Of a stretch of 43,313 nt of DNA, positions 22,860 through 37,036 are shown piece by piece. The translations under genes were made by a program, and so were the position numbers. Below the pieces are notes generated by a model, which did no database searches, was not told the DNA's origin, and saw only the letters and a list, made by a program, of their open reading frames with translations. The stretch's first letter is position 1; each line of letters opens with the position of its first letter. Location: positions 1 to 43,313 of the forward strand of contig LNEG01000242.1 in NCBI GenBank assembly GCA_001464865.1, read 5' to 3'. This DNA is from Burkholderiales bacterium Ga0074133. Its GTDB lineage: Bacteria; Pseudomonadota; Gammaproteobacteria; Burkholderiales; Burkholderiaceae_C.

Positions 22860-23639
22860 ATGCACCGAAGAAACTGCCTTTTGACCCTGGGCGCACTGCT
22901 GGCCGCACGCACGGCCAGCGCGCAAGACGCCACTGCCAGCACCTTTGCCCCCGCCCAGCAACTGCTGCGCGGGCGCACCGTGCAGGCCGCGGGGCTGGAA
23001 CTGGATGTCCCCGCGCTGTCAGAAAACGGCGGGGCCGTGCCGCTGGGCGTGGCCTTTCGCGGCGTACTGCCTGCGGGCGAAACACTGGTGGCCATCCACC
23101 TGCTGGCCACGCGCAACCCCAACCCCGGCCTGCTGAGCTTTGACCTGCCCGGCGACCGGGTGCTGCCCGACTTTGCCACCCGCGTGCGCCTGGCCGAGAG
23201 CCAGACGGTGATCGCCGTGGCGCTGGGCAGCAAGAACAGCGCCTGGGTCGCGCAGCGCAAGGTGCAGGTCACCGTCAGTGGCTGCCTGGGCGGTGGTGAG
23301 GCCGCGCAAAGCGAGGGCATGCGCTCGCCCCGCATCGCGCTGGCACGCCCTACCAAGGCGGGCGGCCCCATCGAGGTGAAGGCGCTGGTGCAGCACCCCA
23401 TGGAAACCGGCCTGCGCCCCGGCACCGACGGCAAGCTGCTGGCACAGAACCTGGTGCGCGACTTCACGCTGCGGATGGGCGAGCGCCCGGTGCTGACGGC
23501 ACGTTTTCAGACCGGCACGTCTGAAAACCCCTACCTGCGGTTCCTGCTGCAACCAGCGCCAGCAACCGGGCCTGCCGTCTTTACCTGGACCGACCAGGCT
23601 GGCCGCACGCTGCGCGAAGAACGCCCGCTCCCGGCTTGA
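22860..23639 (+). CDS. SoxY-SoxZ fusion, sulfur-carrier protein
   Basis: A 259-residue exported protein. After a signal peptide (cut near residue 21) comes a SoxY-like domain (~30-145) ending in VTVSGCLGGG, with Cys142 at the place of the SoxY swinging-arm cysteine (GGCGG). A SoxZ-like domain follows (~156-259: PTKAGGPIEVKALVQHPMETG, FQTGTSENPYLRFLL). In ordinary Sox systems SoxY and SoxZ are separate and the cysteine is at the free SoxY C-terminus; here it is in an internal linker. It starts 4 bp after the transporter gene. No soxB, soxAX or soxCD is in the window. A related fused family serves quinoprotein dehydrogenases, which is an alternative reading. Confidence 0.85.
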   Translation: MHRRNCLLTLGALLAARTASAQDATASTFAPAQQLLRGRTVQAAGLELDVPALSENGGAVPLGVAFRGVLPAGETLVAIHLLATRNPNPGLLSFDLPGDRVLPDFATRVRLAESQTVIAVALGSKNSAWVAQRKVQVTVSGCLGGGEAAQSEGMRSPRIALARPTKAGGPIEVKALVQHPMETGLRPGTDGKLLAQNLVRDFTLRMGERPVLTARFQTGTSENPYLRFLLQPAPATGPAVFTWTDQAGRTLREERPLPA

Positions 23640-24768: not shown

Positions 24769-27700
24769 ATGACCGCCACGCCCAGCCTTCAGCGCACCGC
24801 CGCCCGTTTTGCCATCCCCCGCACGCTGGCGGCAGGCTTCCTGGTGGCCGCTCTCGCCACCCTGGTGATCGCGGCCGTCAACTACCGCTCTGCTGAAACC
24901 CGCGCCGACGCTGTGCGGGCCATGGACCGCGCCTCGCTGGCCATGCGCCAGCTCAACCTGTTCAACGCATCCATCAAGGATGCCGAGACGGGCCAGCGCG
25001 GCTACCTCCTCACAGGCGACGTCGCCTATCTGCAGCCCTATGAGACCGCCGTCGCCGACATGCAGCAGCATCTGGACAGGCTCAAGGCGCAAGCGGAGGA
25101 TCTTCCCTCGCACCAGCAGCTCGTGACGCAGCTCGACGGGTTGCACCGGCAAAAACTGCGCGAGCTGAACCAGACCATTGCGCTGCGCCGGGCTGGCGAT
25201 CTGGACGGTGCCATGGCGCTGGTCAATGGCGGCGAGGGCAAGAACATCATGGACCGCGTGCGCGACACGGTGGAGGCATTGCGCACGCAGCAGACGGAAC
25301 TGCTCGACACCCGGCGCCAGCAGTGGGTGGACGCCGCCAGCAATGACAACCTGTACTCCGCGGGCGGTTCGCTGTTGCTGCTGGTGCTCATCTGCATCTC
25401 GGCCTGGAGTACGGCCCGGGAATACCGCAGGCACGCACTCGAGGCCTGGGTCTCGGCCGGGCTGAACGGCCTGAGCCAGCGCATCCAGGGCGACCATCGC
25501 CTGGAAGAGCTGGGCCCGCTGGCGCTGGAGTACCTGGCCACCTACCTCATGGCCCCGGTGGGGGCGGGGTATGTGGCCGAGCCCGATGGCAGCTTTACGC
25601 TGTTTGGCGGCTACGCCGTGCCGCGCGAACGCCTGCAGCAGACCGTGCTGCCGGGCGAGGGCCTGGTGGGTCAGGCAGCGCGCTCGCGCGCGATGGTGCA
25701 TGTGCGCGACGTGCCGGGGGCCTACCTGCAGGTGTCGTCCAGCACCGGGCAGTCCGCTCCGGCAGAGGTACTGATTGCGCCCGCGGTGGAAAACCGCCGC
25801 GTCTTTGCAGTCATTGAACTGGGCTTTTACCGTGCCGTGGGCGACGCAGAGCGCAACCTGATGGAACGCGCATCCGAGATGCTGGCTGTGGCGGTCCGGT
25901 CGGCCATCGACCGCAACCGCCTGCAGGACCTGCTGGAGGAAACCCAGCGCCAGTCCGAGGAGCTGCAGACCCAGCAGGAAGAGCTGCGCGTGAACAACGA
26001 GGAGCTGGAGCAGCAAAGCCGCGTGCTGCAGGAATCGCAGGCGCAGATGGAGGTGCAGCAGACCGAGCTGGAGCAGACCAACGCCCATCTCGAAGAGCAG
26101 ACCCAGCAGCTGGAATACCAGCGCGAGCAGATGCTGCGCGCCCAGAGCGCACTGACCGACAAGGCCCGCGAGCTGGAGCTGGCCAGCGAATACAAGAGCG
26201 AATTCCTGGCCAACATGAGCCACGAGCTGCGCACACCGCTGAACTCCACGCTCATCCTGGCCAAGCTGCTGGCCGACAACAAGGCCGGCAACCTCAGCGC
26301 CGACCAGGTGAAATACGCGCAGACCATCCATGCCGCCGGCAACGACCTGCTGGCGCTCATCAACGACATCCTCGACCTGTCCAAGATCGAGGCCGGCCAG
26401 GCCACGGTGTCGGTCGAGCCGGTGAACATTGCCAAGGCGCTGCAGGCGCTGGTGGACCCGCTGCGCCCGCTGGCGGCAGACAAGGGGCTGGTGATCGACT
26501 TGTCGGTGGCGCCCGATGTGCCCGCCGGCATGGAAACCGACCCGCTGCGCCTGGGCCAGGTGCTCAAGAACCTGCTGTCCAACGCGATGAAGTTCACCGA
26601 ACAGGGTACGGTGGCCCTGCATGTGTCGCGCAACCCCGACGAAACGCTGTCGTTTGCCGTGAAGGACACCGGCATCGGCATCCCGGCGCACCAGCAGGAA
26701 CTGATCTTCGAGGCATTCCGGCAGGCCGACGGCAGCACGCACCGCAAGTACGGGGGCACCGGGCTGGGGCTGTCGATCTCGCGCGACCTGGCGCAGCTGC
26801 TGGGCGGCAAGCTGTCGGTGCAGAGCACGCCGGGCGAAGGCAGCGTCTTCACCCTGGTGGTACCGGTACGCCTTGCGCCACAGACCGATGTGGACACCGA
26901 GATCCCGGTCGCCGCAGCCACCCGGGACGCGGCACCCGGCACCATCCCGTCGGCAGCGGCACCTGCCATGGCGGCGAGCCCCCGCGGTACACGCGATGCG
27001 GCCACGGCCAGGGCGCTGGCGCCTGCACCGGCGGGCCACGCTGCGGCAGCCGCAGGCAACACCACGGTACGGCCCGCAGGCACCCGCAGCATCCTCGTCA
27101 TCGAGGACGACCACCGGTTCGCCCAGATCCTGCAGGACCTGGCGCGCGAAATGGACTTTGAATGCCACCTGGCCGCCAACGCTGCCGACGGCCTGGCCAT
27201 CGCCGCGCAGACGCTGCCCAGCGCCATCGTGCTGGACGTGAACCTGCCCGATTTTTCGGGCCTGGGTGTGCTCGACCAGCTCAAGCGCAACCCGGCCACG
27301 CGCCACATCCCCGTGCATGTGGTGTCGGTGGCCGACTACGCGCAGGAAGCCATGGGCCGCGGTGCCGTGGGCTACGCACTCAAGCCTGTGGCGCGCGAGG
27401 AACTGGTGGAGGCCCTGCAGCGGCTGGAAGCCAAGTTCACGCAGGACCTGCGGCGGGTGCTGGTGGTGGAAGACGACGAACGCCAGCGTGAAAGCGTGCG
27501 CCACCTGCTCAGCCGCGACGACGTGGAGATCGTCTGCGCAGGCACCGCCGCGGCGGCGCTCTCACACCTGCGTGGCTCCACCTTCGACTGCATGGTGATG
27601 GACCTGAACCTGCCCGACCAGAACGGCTACGAACTGCTGCAAGAGATGGCGGAACAAGACGGCGTGTCGTTCCCGCCCGTCATCGTCTACACCGGCCGGG

Positions 27701-28269
27701 CGCTGTCGCGCGACGAAGAGCAGCAGCTGCGCCGCTTCTCGCGCTCCATCATCATCAAGGACGCGCGCTCGCCCGAGCGGCTGCTCGATGAGGTGACGCT
27801 GTTCCTGCACCAGGTGGAGTCCGAACTGTCGGACGAGCACCAGCGCATGCTGCAGCAGGCCCGCAGCCGCGACACGGCGCTGGAGGGCCGCACCGTACTG
27901 GTGGTGGAAGACGATGTGCGCAACGTGTTTGCGCTGTCCAGCATCCTGGAGCCCACCGGCATTCGCGTGGAGATTGCCCGCAATGGCCGAGAAGCCCTCC
28001 AGGCCCTGGAACGCGCAGGCACCGGCGGCAGCCCGGCAGTGGACCTGGTGCTGATGGACATCATGATGCCGGAGATGGACGGCTACACCGCCATGCGCGA
28101 GATCCGTGCGCAGCCCGGATGGCGGCGCCTGCCCATCATTGCACTGACCGCCAAAGCGATGAAGGACGACCAGGAAAGGTGCCTTGCCGCCGGAGCCAAC
28201 GACTACATCGCCAAGCCGCTCGACGTGGAAAAGCTGCTGTCGCTGGTACGGGTATGGATGCCCAAGTGA
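24769..28269 (+). CDS. CHASE3-GAF hybrid histidine kinase with three receiver domains
   Basis: A 1166-residue membrane sensor kinase. In order: TM1 (~19-37), a CHASE3-type periplasmic domain (~40-190), TM2 (~197-213), GAF domain (~240-385), a long Glu/Gln-rich coiled coil (~386-475), HisKA with phosphoacceptor His485 (SHELRTPLN), HATPase ([24 protein letters not shown]), an Ala/Pro-rich linker, then three receivers with phosphoacceptors Asp823, Asp945 and Asp1097. All three keep their acidic pockets. The coiled coil carries Glu pairs at 390/391, 397/398, 404/405 and 411/412. It heads a four-gene operon with cheR, cheB and a receiver-kinase; the signal is unknown. The 195-bp gap to ubiA shows no clear promoter. 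Confidence 0.92.
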
Positions 28270-29153
28270 CCGGCAACGACACAGCACCGCCCGGAAAGAT
28301 GCCGACATCCATCCCGTCCACCCACCGGAAAGTGCGCACGGCCGACATCGAGCAGCGCCTGCTGATCGATGCCATCTACCACCGCTACCACTACGACTTT
28401 CGCGGGTACGCGCAGGCGTCGCTGCGGCGGCGGCTGAACGCGGCACTGATCCGCTTTGACTGCCAGACCGTGTCGCAGCTGCAGGACCGCGTGCTGCACG
28501 AGCCCACAGTGTTCCCCGCCCTGCTGGAATACCTCACGGTGCAGGTGAGCGACATGTTCCGTGACCCGGGCTATTTCCAGTCGCTGCGCACCGACGTCGT
28601 CCCGCTGCTGCGCACCTACCCTTCCCTCAAGGTGTGGGTGGCGGGCTGCAGCGCAGGCGAAGAGGTGTACTCGCTGGCCATCCTGCTGCACGAGGAAGGC
28701 CTGCTGGACCGCACCCTGATCTACGGCACCGACATCAACCCGCACGCCCTGCGCGCGGCAGAGTCGGGTGTTTTCGACATGGCGCGGGTGGCGGCCTTTT
28801 CCGAGAACTACGCGCGTTCGGGCGCGCGCAGCTCGCTGTCGGACTACTACACGGCCCGGTACGGCCGCGTGGTGTTTGACAAGTCGCTGCGCGAGCACAT
28901 GGTGTTCTCGGACCACAGCCTGGCCACCGACAGCGTGTTTGCCGAGATGCACCTGGTGTCGTGCCGCAACGTGCTCATCTACTTCGAGCGCGACCTGCAA
29001 AACCGCGCCCTCGGCCTGTTCCGCGAGGCACTGTGCCACCGCGGCTTTCTGGGGCTGGGCTCCAAGGAGTCACTGCGCTTTTCCGACCAGACCGAGGCCT
29101 TCGAGGACTTCGTGGCGGAAGACCGCATCTACCGCAAGAAGGCGGGGCTGTGA
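28254..29153 (+). CDS. cheR: CheR-type protein-glutamate methyltransferase
   Basis: S-adenosylmethionine-dependent methylation of glutamate side chains. It has 299 residues: an N-terminal alpha domain (~35-90) and the methyltransferase domain with VWVAGCSAGEEVYSLAIL (SAM binding), GTDINPHALRAA and CRNVLIYF. There is no C-terminal TPR or receptor-tethering pentapeptide binding site that I can see. The chosen ATG 28254 overlaps the kinase gene by 16 bases; GTG 28266 is an alternative. No chemoreceptor gene is nearby, so its substrate is open. Confidence 0.92.
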   Translation: MDAQVTGNDTAPPGKMPTSIPSTHRKVRTADIEQRLLIDAIYHRYHYDFRGYAQASLRRRLNAALIRFDCQTVSQLQDRVLHEPTVFPALLEYLTVQVSDMFRDPGYFQSLRTDVVPLLRTYPSLKVWVAGCSAGEEVYSLAILLHEEGLLDRTLIYGTDINPHALRAAESGVFDMARVAAFSENYARSGARSSLSDYYTARYGRVVFDKSLREHMVFSDHSLATDSVFAEMHLVSCRNVLIYFERDLQNRALGLFREALCHRGFLGLGSKESLRFSDQTEAFEDFVAEDRIYRKKAGL

Positions 29154-29815
29154 TGGCCGACACCGGCGTTGCACTGCCCTCCCATCAGGAAACAGGGCCG
29201 CTGCCAGATACAAGGGGCTGCGCCACACACCCCGCGCAGCCCGCTTACGATGCCATCGTCATCGGAGGCTCGTCGGGGGCCATTGACGCCCTGGGTGTCA
29301 TTCTTCCCGCGTTGCCAGCCACGCTGCACGCGTGCGTGCTGGTCGTGATGCACCTGCCACGCGACCGGCGCAGCCTGCTGGCCGACATTTTTCGCCAGCG
29401 CTGCGCACTGCCCGTGAAGGAAGCCAGCGACGGCTTGCTGCTGACCCGGCCCCTGATCTGCTTTGCCCCGCCCGACTACCACCTGCTGGTGGATGCCGGA
29501 CCCCGCGTGGCACTGTCGATCGACCCGCCGCTGCACTATTCACGCCCGTCCATTGATGTGCTGTTTGAGTCTGCCGCCGACCTGTACGGCGACCGCGCGG
29601 TGGCGGTGCTGCTGTCGGGCGCCAACGAGGACGGCGCCCGTGGGCTTGCGGCAGTGCAGGCGGCTGGCGGCCTGACCATTGTCCAGTCGCCCGAGAGCGC
29701 CCCCATGCAGGCCATGCCGCTGGCTGGTCTCGCGCGCGTACCGGCGCACCATGTACTGCCACCGCCCGCTGTGGGCGCACTGCTGGCCGACCTGCACGGC
29801 AAGGGGCAGCTATGA
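29153..29815 (+). CDS. CheB-type methylesterase domain protein without receiver
   Basis: A 220-residue protein that is only the CheB catalytic domain. The triad is Ser40 (IGGSSGAIDAL), His67 (VMHLP) and Asp160 (LSGANEDGARG). The N-terminal receiver domain that controls ordinary CheB by phosphorylation is absent, so regulation must come from elsewhere, perhaps from the receivers of the adjoining kinases. It overlaps cheR by one base (TGATG) and the next gene by four (ATGA). It probably removes methyl groups added by the neighbouring CheR. Confidence 0.92.
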   Translation: MADTGVALPSHQETGPLPDTRGCATHPAQPAYDAIVIGGSSGAIDALGVILPALPATLHACVLVVMHLPRDRRSLLADIFRQRCALPVKEASDGLLLTRPLICFAPPDYHLLVDAGPRVALSIDPPLHYSRPSIDVLFESAADLYGDRAVAVLLSGANEDGARGLAAVQAAGGLTIVQSPESAPMQAMPLAGLARVPAHHVLPPPAVGALLADLHGKGQL

Positions 29816-31017
29816 CGACTGCACCCCGACTCATGCCGGCTTCAGACACGGCGTCTGCGTCTGTCGCCCCATCGCCTTTGCCCGCCATGCCCCACACCAC
29901 CCGCATCAAGTGCCTGCTCGTTGACGACATCGAAGAGAACCTCGTGGCCCTGGAGGCGCTGCTGCAGCATGACGATATCGATGTGCTCAAGGCCAGCTCG
30001 GGGCGCGAGGCCCTGGAGTTGCTGCTGGAGCACGGCGATGTGGCGCTGGCCCTGCTGGATGTGCAGATGCCGGAGATGAACGGATTCGAGCTGGCAGAGC
30101 TGATCCGCGGCAGTGAGCGTACGCGGCACATTCCGCTGATCTTCATGACAGCAGGCGCACGCGAGCAGAACTGGCAGTTCCGCGGCTATGAAAACGGGGC
30201 GGTGGATTTTCTGTACAAACCCATCGATCCGCACATGCTGACCAGCAAGGCCCATGTGTTCTTCGAGCTGCACCGCCGCCGGCAGGCACTGGCGCAGGAG
30301 CTGCAGGAGCGCACCGAAGCCCTGCGCATCAATGAAATGTTCATGGCCGTGCTGAGCCACGACCTGCGCACGCCGTTGATGTCGATCACGGCGGCGGCCA
30401 GCGTGCTCAGGCGCGACCTGCCCCCTGACAAGGCCGCCAACATGGTGGACCGCGTGCTGCGCAGCAGCGCGCGCATGGGTCGGATGATCGAGGACCTGCT
30501 CGACCTCACGCGCATCCGCCAGGCGGGCGGGCTGTCGCTGCAGCTGGGGACGGCCGACATGCACGGGATCGTGCAGCGCGCTGCCGAAGAACTGCAGACA
30601 GGGTTTCCGGACCGCCAGATCGTGACCGACCTGGACGGCGACCTCGAGGGCGTGTGGGACAGCGAGCGCCTGTGCCAGGTGCTCACCAACCTGGTTGGCA
30701 ACGCAGTGCACCACGGGGCGGCCGACCAGCCGGTGAACATCCTGGCCGACGGTACGCAGAGCAAAACGGTGGCGGTCACGGTGCGCAACCGCGGGGCCAT
30801 TCCACCCGAACTGCTGCCCCACCTGTTCAATCCGTTCCGCGGGCGCGAACGGCCTCCGGGGCGCCACCAGGGACTGGGGCTGGGGCTGTTCATTGCGGAC
30901 CAGATCGTGCGCACGCACGGCGGGCGGATCGAGGTGCAATCGGCCCATGACGTGACGCAGTTCCGGGTGGAGCTGCCGCGCGTCAGCCGGCCGCTCCGAA
31001 GCCAGGAAAGTGTTTGA
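29812..31017 (+). CDS. Receiver-histidine kinase (soluble hybrid sensor)
   Basis: A 401-residue cytoplasmic protein with reversed domain order. The receiver is first (~32-150; acidic pair VDDIEEN, phosphoacceptor Asp83 in LLDVQMPEMNG, Lys136). A short coiled linker is followed by HisKA with His183 (LSHDLRTPLMS) and HATPase (LTNLVGNAVHHG, LGLGLFIADQIV). The G1 motif is altered (RNRGAIPPE in place of DxGxGI). The ATG at 29812 overlaps cheB by 4 bases. It may take phosphate from the CHASE3 kinase through its receiver and signal on. No output domain is present. Confidence 0.9.
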   Translation: MTTAPRLMPASDTASASVAPSPLPAMPHTTRIKCLLVDDIEENLVALEALLQHDDIDVLKASSGREALELLLEHGDVALALLDVQMPEMNGFELAELIRGSERTRHIPLIFMTAGAREQNWQFRGYENGAVDFLYKPIDPHMLTSKAHVFFELHRRRQALAQELQERTEALRINEMFMAVLSHDLRTPLMSITAAASVLRRDLPPDKAANMVDRVLRSSARMGRMIEDLLDLTRIRQAGGLSLQLGTADMHGIVQRAAEELQTGFPDRQIVTDLDGDLEGVWDSERLCQVLTNLVGNAVHHGAADQPVNILADGTQSKTVAVTVRNRGAIPPELLPHLFNPFRGRERPPGRHQGLGLGLFIADQIVRTHGGRIEVQSAHDVTQFRVELPRVSRPLRSQESV

Positions 31018-33454: not shown

Positions 33455-35629
<2,175 letters not shown>

Positions 35630-35755
35630 GCAGGGACTTGGATAATTACGCGGTCGCCGGTCGGTTACTGGCAGCCAAAAAGGCTACCATGGTTACCATT
35701 GCTCACCGTTTCCCGATTCTGTGCCGGCCGGTGGCAAACGGCGACTTTTTTCACC
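35630..35755. promoter_or_regulatory. Divergent recG / HD-GYP promoter region
   Basis: A 126-bp gap between two divergent start codons, so promoters for both must lie here or inside the genes. It is less GC-rich than its flanks. Only weak -10-like stretches were seen (for recG, TAATTA on the minus strand at 35644-35649, without a matching -35). A small AGCC-AAAAA-GGCT hairpin is present. No operator is claimed. Confidence 0.4.
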
Positions 35756-37036
35756 ATGCTCAAGCGTATCCACATCAAAGACCTGACCCTGGGCATGTAC
35801 CTGCACGAGTTCTGTGGCTCGTGGATGGAGCACCCCTTCTGGCGGGCCAAGTTCCTGCTCAAGGACCCTGCGGACCTGGCGCGCATCCAGGCCACGGCCA
35901 TTCCCGAGTGCTGGATCGACACCTCCAAGGGTCTGGACGTGGCGGCAGGCACCAGCACGGTGTCGCGCGAGGAGGTGGATGCGCAGATCGAAACCGATTT
36001 CAGCCGGCTGGAAGACCTGCCCACGGTCAAGGTGACACTGCCGCAGCCCCCGCCGCCGCCCGTGCGCAACGCGGCGCCTGCCACCATGCACAGCGAGCTG
36101 CGCATGGCCGCGGCCATCTGCAATAAATCCAAGGATGCGGTGGTGTCTATGTTCAGCGAGGCCCGCATGGGCCGCGCGGTGGATTCCGAAGGGGCGCAGA
36201 GCCTGGTGGCCGAGATCTCGGATTCGGTCACCCGCAACCCGGGTGCGCTCATCAGCCTGGCACGCCTGAAGACGGCCGACGACTACACCTTCATGCATTC
36301 GGTGGCCGTGTGCGCGCTGATGGTGGCGCTGGCCCGGCAGCTCAAGCTCAACGACGAGCAGACCCGGCTGGCGGGCATGGCCGGACTGCTGCACGACCTG
36401 GGCAAGGCGGCCATACCGCTGGCCGTGCTCAACAAGCCCGGCAAGCTGACCGACGGCGAATTCGACGTGGTGCGCAGCCACCCGGTGGAGGGCTACCACA
36501 TGCTCCGCGAAGGCGGCAATGTGCCCGACGCCGTGCTGGACGCCTGCCTGCACCACCACGAGAAGATCGACGGATCGGGCTACCCCGACAAGCTCCAGGG
36601 CGACGCGATCAGCATCATTGCGCGCATGACGGCGATCTGCGACGTGTACGACGCCATCACCTCCGACCGCGCCTACAAGCGCGGCTGGGACCCTGCCGAG
36701 TCGCTGCGCCGCATGGCCGAATGGACCAAGGACCACTTCGATCCCCGGCTGTTCCAGGCCTTCGTCAAGAGCATCGGCATCTACCCCGTGGGCTCGCTCG
36801 TGCGGCTCACGTCCGGGCGCATCGGCGTGGTGACCGAGCAATCGCCCACCGCGCTCACCACGCCCATGGTCAAGGTTTTCTTTTCGACCAAGGCCGACCT
36901 GCGCATTCCGCCGGAGGTCATCAACCTGGCCGCCCCGGACTGCAACGAAAAGATCGTGGCCCGCGAAGACCCCGACAAGTGGCGCTTTCCGGACATCAAC
37001 GAACTCTGGTCAGGGTTTAGCGAACGGCCATGGTGA
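35756..37036 (+). CDS. DUF3391 / HD-GYP cyclic-di-GMP phosphodiesterase
   Basis: A 426-residue cytosolic protein. The N-terminal DUF3391 domain (~1-130: RIHIKDLTLGMYLHEFCGSW) ends in a proline run. The HD-GYP domain (~175-340) has the metal ligands of GLLHDLGKA and HHHEKIDGSGYPDKLQG, with the GYP triplet intact. HD-GYP proteins hydrolyse c-di-GMP. The start ATG 35756 is chosen because DUF3391 begins there; the open frame extends far upstream antisense to recG. It overlaps the next gene by 7 bases. Confidence 0.93.
   Translation: MLKRIHIKDLTLGMYLHEFCGSWMEHPFWRAKFLLKDPADLARIQATAIPECWIDTSKGLDVAAGTSTVSREEVDAQIETDFSRLEDLPTVKVTLPQPPPPPVRNAAPATMHSELRMAAAICNKSKDAVVSMFSEARMGRAVDSEGAQSLVAEISDSVTRNPGALISLARLKTADDYTFMHSVAVCALMVALARQLKLNDEQTRLAGMAGLLHDLGKAAIPLAVLNKPGKLTDGEFDVVRSHPVEGYHMLREGGNVPDAVLDACLHHHEKIDGSGYPDKLQGDAISIIARMTAICDVYDAITSDRAYKRGWDPAESLRRMAEWTKDHFDPRLFQAFVKSIGIYPVGSLVRLTSGRIGVVTEQSPTALTTPMVKVFFSTKADLRIPPEVINLAAPDCNEKIVAREDPDKWRFPDINELWSGFSERPW

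Follow-up and report, generated by a model that had tools for sequence, protein, structure and literature searches.

The operon and the glutamate ladder of its kinase

The window analyzed here, a stretch of 43,313 nucleotides from Burkholderiales bacterium Ga0074133 (contig LNEG01000242.1), carries an operon in which a large hybrid sensor kinase is followed by cheR, cheB and a second kinase gene with a receiver domain (Table 1). The earlier note on this DNA had read the two genes after the kinase as a CheR methyltransferase and a CheB methylesterase, and their Pfam matches (CheR and CheB_methylest) agree. The cheR reading frame opens at 28119 and ends at 29153; its start is likely the ATG at 28254, which overlaps the kinase stop at 28269, or that at 28299, both starts being assigned from the translation. 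The likely ATG of cheB at 29153 in turn overlaps the cheR stop. The closest structure to the window CheR in the PDB is 5ftw (E 8.8e-24), and its SAM-binding domain is present with the expected motif. The CheB domain retains the Ser, His and Asp residues that we take to be its catalytic triad. Because PF01339 is its only Pfam match, this CheB is without a receiver domain, unlike CheB of the chemotaxis type.

Table 1. Features of the kinase-cheR-cheB operon, with positions in the window
Feature	Position	Strand	Basis
Hybrid sensor kinase, 1166 aa, CHASE3-GAF-coil-HisKA-HATPase-3 receivers	24769..28269	+	Translation and Pfam
CHASE3 sensor domain, aa 51-185	24919..25323	+	Pfam PF05227, E 3.9e-35
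GAF_2 domain, aa 243-376	25495..25896	+	Pfam PF13185, E 2.1e-10
Predicted single unbroken helix, aa 359-503, from the GAF end through the coil to past phospho-accepting His485	25843..26277	+	AlphaFold2 monomer
Glu-Glu ladder of four pairs in exact heptad register (aa 390/391, 397/398, 404/405, 411/412), suggested as methyl-acceptor sites	25936..26004	+	Translation, conservation, shuffles
HisKA domain, aa 476-543	26194..26397	+	Pfam PF00512
HATPase_c domain, aa 591-701	26539..26871	+	Pfam PF02518
cheR	28254..29153	+	PF01739 (E 6.9e-36), PF03705; start inferred from translation
cheB, methylesterase domain only	29153..29815	+	PF01339 (E 4.4e-48), sole Pfam match; ATG inferred
REC-HisKA-HATPase protein, 401 aa, 4-base overlap with cheB	29812..31017	+	ORF and Pfam

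Two other genes of the window may be mentioned for their own sake. Upstream of the operon, one reading frame (22860-23639, +) matches both SoxY and SoxZ and appears as a SoxYZ fusion. About 4 kb downstream, at 35198-37036 (+), is a protein with DUF3391 and HD_5 matches, as expected of a c-di-GMP phosphodiesterase of the HD-GYP type. The source genome as a whole (4.3 Mb) has 49 GGDEF matches and 34 matches to the MCP domain. It has only two CheR genes, that of the window and one at C65.

Within the window kinase, Pfam finds three Response_reg stretches and no MCP signalling domain (PF00015). On retranslation, the four glutamate pairs stand seven residues apart exactly where the earlier note had placed them, and its description of a Glu/Gln-rich coil between GAF and HisKA is borne out by the Pfam limits and by a count of 20 Glu and 20 Gln in 92 residues. 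Because so rich a coil might produce runs of pairs by chance, we shuffled a 100-residue segment of it 5000 times. No shuffle gave four pairs at an exact spacing of seven and 0.26% gave a run of at least three, and a chance origin of the ladder was rejected on this basis.

The pairs are conserved to the same degree as the leucines of the coil. Among 34 aligned cheR-linked relatives, mean identity to the commonest residue is 0.89 for the eight pair residues, 0.89 for the heptad leucines and 0.58 for the other non-core positions. By residue, Glu is found in 22 of these sequences at position 390 (Ala in 8), in 30 at 391 (Gln in the other 4), in 31 at 397, 29 at 398, 32 at 404, all 34 at 405, 31 at 411 and 33 at 412. 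The first pair is therefore often Ala-Glu, while its second residue is always Glu or Gln. Since the whole coil is rich in Gln, exchange of Glu and Gln at pair positions such as 391 carries little weight, and we do not use it as support. An AlphaFold2 monomer model built with 34 sequences has a mean pLDDT of 90 and predicts residues 359-503 as one helix; pLDDT is 95-96 over the ladder and 76 around the histidine.

Ladders in cheR-linked and unlinked kinases

To compare kinases with and without the adjoining enzymes, we drew them from 40 regions found with a query that included the coil, 60 regions found with the catalytic part alone and 80 CheR loci. A kinase was called linked when a CheR or CheB match was found up to 3.5 kb away in the same orientation. 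A filter for coils rich in Glu and Gln and low in Pro, Gly, Trp and Cys passed 135 of 247 kinases and dropped 112. A run of at least three pairs occurs in 78 of the 114 linked kinases that passed, versus 2 of the 19 unlinked; the longest run in the other 36 linked coils is one or two, and two filtered kinases too near a contig end to be classed have runs of three and four. Linked coils also hold more pairs than their shuffled counterparts (mean 5.86 versus 4.08, n=114), whereas unlinked coils do not (2.32 versus 2.45, n=19). Unfiltered, the runs number 78/158 in linked kinases, 2/73 in unlinked ones and 2/16 near contig ends. When the set gathered by way of CheR is left out, 29 of 47 linked and 2 of 19 unlinked kinases have such a run (Fisher p 0.00025, a value that ignores kinship). 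By the criterion of the earlier note, its idea would fail if the pairs were conserved just as well in kinases that lack a linked cheR or cheB; linked and unlinked kinases proved unequal, and the idea was not refuted.

The unlinked kinases come from 18 genomes, 15 of which lack a CheR of the module type (no match scores above 183 bits, and modules score at least 339 bits). None of the 16 unlinked kinases in these 15 genomes has a run of three. Where a module CheR is encoded elsewhere in the genome, the unlinked kinases of loci L045 and L189 have a run of three, that of L045 with five pairs in all, and the kinase of L234 has a single pair. At locus L193 a divergent CheR (202 bits) lies alongside a kinase with one pair, which failed the coil filter. 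On a FastTree tree of the catalytic region, used without support values, linkage changes about four times; the nearest linked relative is richer in pairs in three of the four changes and equal in the fourth, that of L045. A single clade of long kinases accounts for 16 of the 19 unlinked ones, so these counts overstate the amount of independent evidence.

Ladders are rare outside kinases in the DNA that we gathered. The 181 loci, which were collected around kinases and CheR and are not a random sample of genomes, hold 2372 gene-like reading frames, and 77 of these have a run of at least three pairs: 75 kinases (71 linked, 2 unlinked, 1 near an edge and 1 unclassified), one CheB-CheR fusion and one other. 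Among the 1876 reading frames of these loci that are neither kinase nor CheR or CheB, 1875 are without such a run. The sole exception, L127:2-727 (+), is a ladder-bearing reading frame at a contig end, upstream of cheR and without a match to the kinase model; it is perhaps a broken or split kinase.

Ladders also follow CheR where CheB and CheR are fused. All eight long CheB-CheR reading frames examined, from many more listed (L111 and L243-L249; 1034-1450 aa), have a ladder of five to seven pairs after the CheR domain, and none of these ladders was reproduced in 2000 shuffles each. The short fusions of 559 aa (L063, L065 and L241) have no such ladder. At L063 and L065 the short fusion adjoins a kinase whose repetitive coil consists of near-identical repeats; these kinases have seven pairs, no two of them at exact heptad spacing.

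Spread of the module and genomes without chemoreceptor matches

A CheR alignment of 27 rows served to find further loci, and the best 80 of at least 581 relatives were taken from genome contigs. Among these best 80, a kinase with an E/Q-rich coil is encoded no more than 700 nt from cheR and in the same orientation in 66, a strong kinase match is found near cheR in 70, and a CheB match is present in 63. Six of the ten loci without a strong kinase match have cheR near the contig start (L073, L097, L100, L112, L127 and L137). The kinase-bearing loci belong to Pseudomonadota, Bacteroidota, Bacillota, Verrucomicrobiota, Cyanobacteriota and Thermodesulfobacteriota, and one further module locus is, by record title only, from a Gemmatimonadetes bacterium. 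The module of kinase and cheR spans at least six phyla, a spread that is new here.

We searched for MCPs in 43 module genomes, with loci picked to cover most of the non-Pseudomonadota among the 80. Matches were above the cut-off in 26 genomes, below it in one and absent from 16, and CheW had no match in any of the 17 genomes made up of these 16 and the one with a weak MCP match. Nine of the 16 carry no MAG label in their titles (L111, L113, L114, L131, L133, L136, L144, L145 and L149) and seven are MAGs, with no completeness given for any of the 16. A linked coil kinase with four to eight pairs is present at 15 of the 16 MCP-less loci; at L114 no kinase passed the coil filter. In the genomes without detectable MCP or CheW, the SAM-motif glutamate and both alpha-2 arginines of CheR are kept in 17 of 17 and the CRNVxIYF motif is mostly kept, while the aligned CheB sequences have the serine in 12 of 13 (one gap) and the histidine and aspartate in all 13. 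The SAM-binding residues of CheR and the catalytic residues of CheB are thus nearly invariant in these genomes, where the lack of detectable MCP and CheW makes an MCP substrate impossible or unlikely. Genomes G304 (L131), G326 (L136) and G328 (L145) have the kinase and CheR, with no match to CheB, MCP or CheW. These three have a methyltransferase without a known eraser, so reversal by CheB is not universal.

A profile of 11 MCPs from the source genome finds an MCP-like reading frame within the fetched DNA at 10 of all 181 loci and at one of the 80 CheR loci (L129, on the opposite strand). At L031, the closest relative fetched, the kinase is preceded on its own strand, at a distance of about 0.9 kb, by an MCP-like gene (L031:15145-16896, -).

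The likely target of CheR and its known relatives

CheR and CheB normally act on chemotaxis receptors, in whose glutamate pairs the second residue is usually the one methylated. Since the same arrangement persists in bacteria without a detectable chemotaxis system, the enzymes most likely act on the kinase itself, and the best single explanation of the operon, which we consider probable, is that the window kinase is the substrate of the adjoining CheR. Input to the CHASE3 and GAF domains would, on the structural model, reach the phospho-accepting His485 through a single long coiled-coil helix. By analogy with chemoreceptors, CheR may methylate the heptad-spaced glutamates of this helix, most likely 391, 398, 405 and 412. 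Methylation would remove negative charge and reset the signalling state, and the receiver-less CheB would take the methyl groups off again. The outcome would be a histidine kinase capable of adaptation, with a tunable set point like that of a chemoreceptor.

The glutamate pairs could instead be structural, if charge on the surface of a polar coil rich in Glu and Gln is required to keep it soluble, in register or able to transmit signals, with CheR and CheB acting elsewhere. The composition of the coil and its core of one leucine per heptad with polar partners fit this reading, as do the unlinked long kinases, whose related coil of the QEEL/NEEL type has no cheR in reach, and the unlinked kinase of L045 with its five pairs and run of three. 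We nevertheless regard it as unlikely, because linked coils exceed their shuffles in pairs while unlinked coils of comparable make-up do not, because the pairs match the core leucines in conservation and the rest of the coil surface falls far behind, and because the longest ladders occur in proteins fused to CheR. We find it rather doubtful, too, that CheR or CheB or both act in some other way, on another part of the kinase or on the downstream REC-kinase, or with CheR as a non-catalytic adaptor. CheR of Salmonella reportedly methylates an arginine of the response regulator PhoP (PMC8546571), modules with CheR and no CheB match exist, and the REC-kinase gene overlaps cheB; however, near-invariant SAM-binding and catalytic residues argue against such a role, which would also leave the tie between ladder and CheR linkage or fusion unexplained.

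A third reading, in which ordinary chemoreceptors from elsewhere in the genome are the substrates of CheR and CheB and the kinase is a mere neighbour or a link from chemotaxis to another output, is very improbable. The source genome has chemoreceptors in number, and MCP-like genes do lie near the modules of L031 and, on the other strand, L129. Yet such a gene is found at one of the 80 CheR loci, the second CheR of the source genome scores higher against the general CheR model than that of the window (188.8 versus 125.5 bits), and a role in chemotaxis is reported as ruled out for CfcB and CfcC of Pseudomonas putida (PMC4951495). As a general account, service to MCPs is refuted by the 16 module genomes without MCP and CheW matches.

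The earlier note had proposed that the helix of the window kinase is itself the substrate of reversible methylation. The substrate part of this proposal gains from the contrast between linked and unlinked ladders and from the genomes without MCP and CheW, while the chemoreceptor consensus is missing from the pairs and reversal does not extend to modules without CheB. More broadly, the odds are about even that CheR, together with any CheB present, widely serves to tune hybrid histidine kinases by glutamate methylation and independently of chemoreceptors, the heptad ladder being a CheR docking or acceptor module shared by operon-linked kinases and CheB-CheR fusions in at least six phyla, including bacteria without a detectable chemosensory pathway. 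If so, chemoreceptors would not be alone in having a methylation memory: an ordinary two-component sensor could use these enzymes to adjust its set point, and a substrate would be at hand for many CheR and CheB genes of bacteria without chemotaxis. In the open-access literature searched we found no report that a CheR methylates the kinase to which it is linked.

The likeness to chemoreceptors has clear limits. MCPs, like the window kinase, have a long helix with Glu-Glu pairs at a spacing of seven; the methylation helices of 11 MCPs of the source genome have LEETAASMEEL-like sequences with two pairs at this spacing, and the pattern LEETxxxxEEL is common to these MCPs and the kinase. MCPs differ in having the PF00015 signalling domain and output through CheA and CheW, whereas the window kinase is its own output kinase and is served by a CheB without a receiver. 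The MCP consensus E-E-x-x-A-S/T has no site in the window coil and occurs in 11 of 114 linked coils, versus 10 of the 11 MCPs examined from the source genome. Because the consensus is missing, the sites of the kinase do not count as chemoreceptor sites by that standard, and CheR, if it uses them, must read another context. The CheB-CheR fusions, of about 1000-1450 aa and with a coil and other domains behind the enzymes, resemble the window in that a heptad ladder accompanies both enzymes; their ladders are longer and the enzymes stand in cis, where the window has separate genes, and their CheR bears only a remote likeness to that of the modules (155-194 bits with the module model, compared with 340-440 bits for modules). 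A study of Maribeggiatoa describes CheR and CheB directly downstream of kinases with several receivers, in nearly all cases outside the Beggiatoaceae among its examples; the available passages mention neither glutamate pairs nor the kinase as a substrate (PMC5108060).

The type of operon found in the window is already known, as cfcABCDE of P. putida KT2440. That cluster has the same order, a CHASE3/GAF hybrid kinase, then a CheB/CheR pair (cfcB and cfcC), then a receiver-bearing gene; we draw the likeness from the published description and from P. putida locus L092, which has the cfc gene order and a kinase with a ladder. The histidine of CfcA is published as H496, while its number at L092 depends on the start chosen. 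Two other leads from the literature fell away: P. putida CheR1 is not the CheR of this operon, cheR1 being placed in a wsp-like cluster (PMC6363813, in part), and WelA proved unrelated. CfcA (PP_3761) is a multisensor hybrid kinase whose histidine is required for the diguanylate cyclase CfcR (PMC4951495); it is elsewhere described as a CHASE3/GAF protein (PMC6849547) and cited as a salt sensor (PMC12421958), all according to the parts of these papers available. Of the two systems, only cfc is known for a CfcR-type target and salt sensing, and none of the 49 GGDEF matches in the source genome is assigned as a partner. An unpublished statement within PMC4951495 has it that the crinkle phenotype is kept by mutants in the remaining cfc genes, so that CheR and CheB would appear to be unneeded for CfcA output under the conditions used. 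The available passages of PMC4951495, PMC6849547 and PMC12421958 give no substrate for the cfc CheR and CheB, and a methylated kinase helix, if real, would supply this missing target. Beyond the spread of the module and its persistence, with catalytic residues kept, in genomes without MCP and CheW matches, what our analysis adds to the known cluster is the association of ladder with linkage, the ladders of the fusion proteins and the conservation of the pairs at the level of the leucines within one predicted helix.
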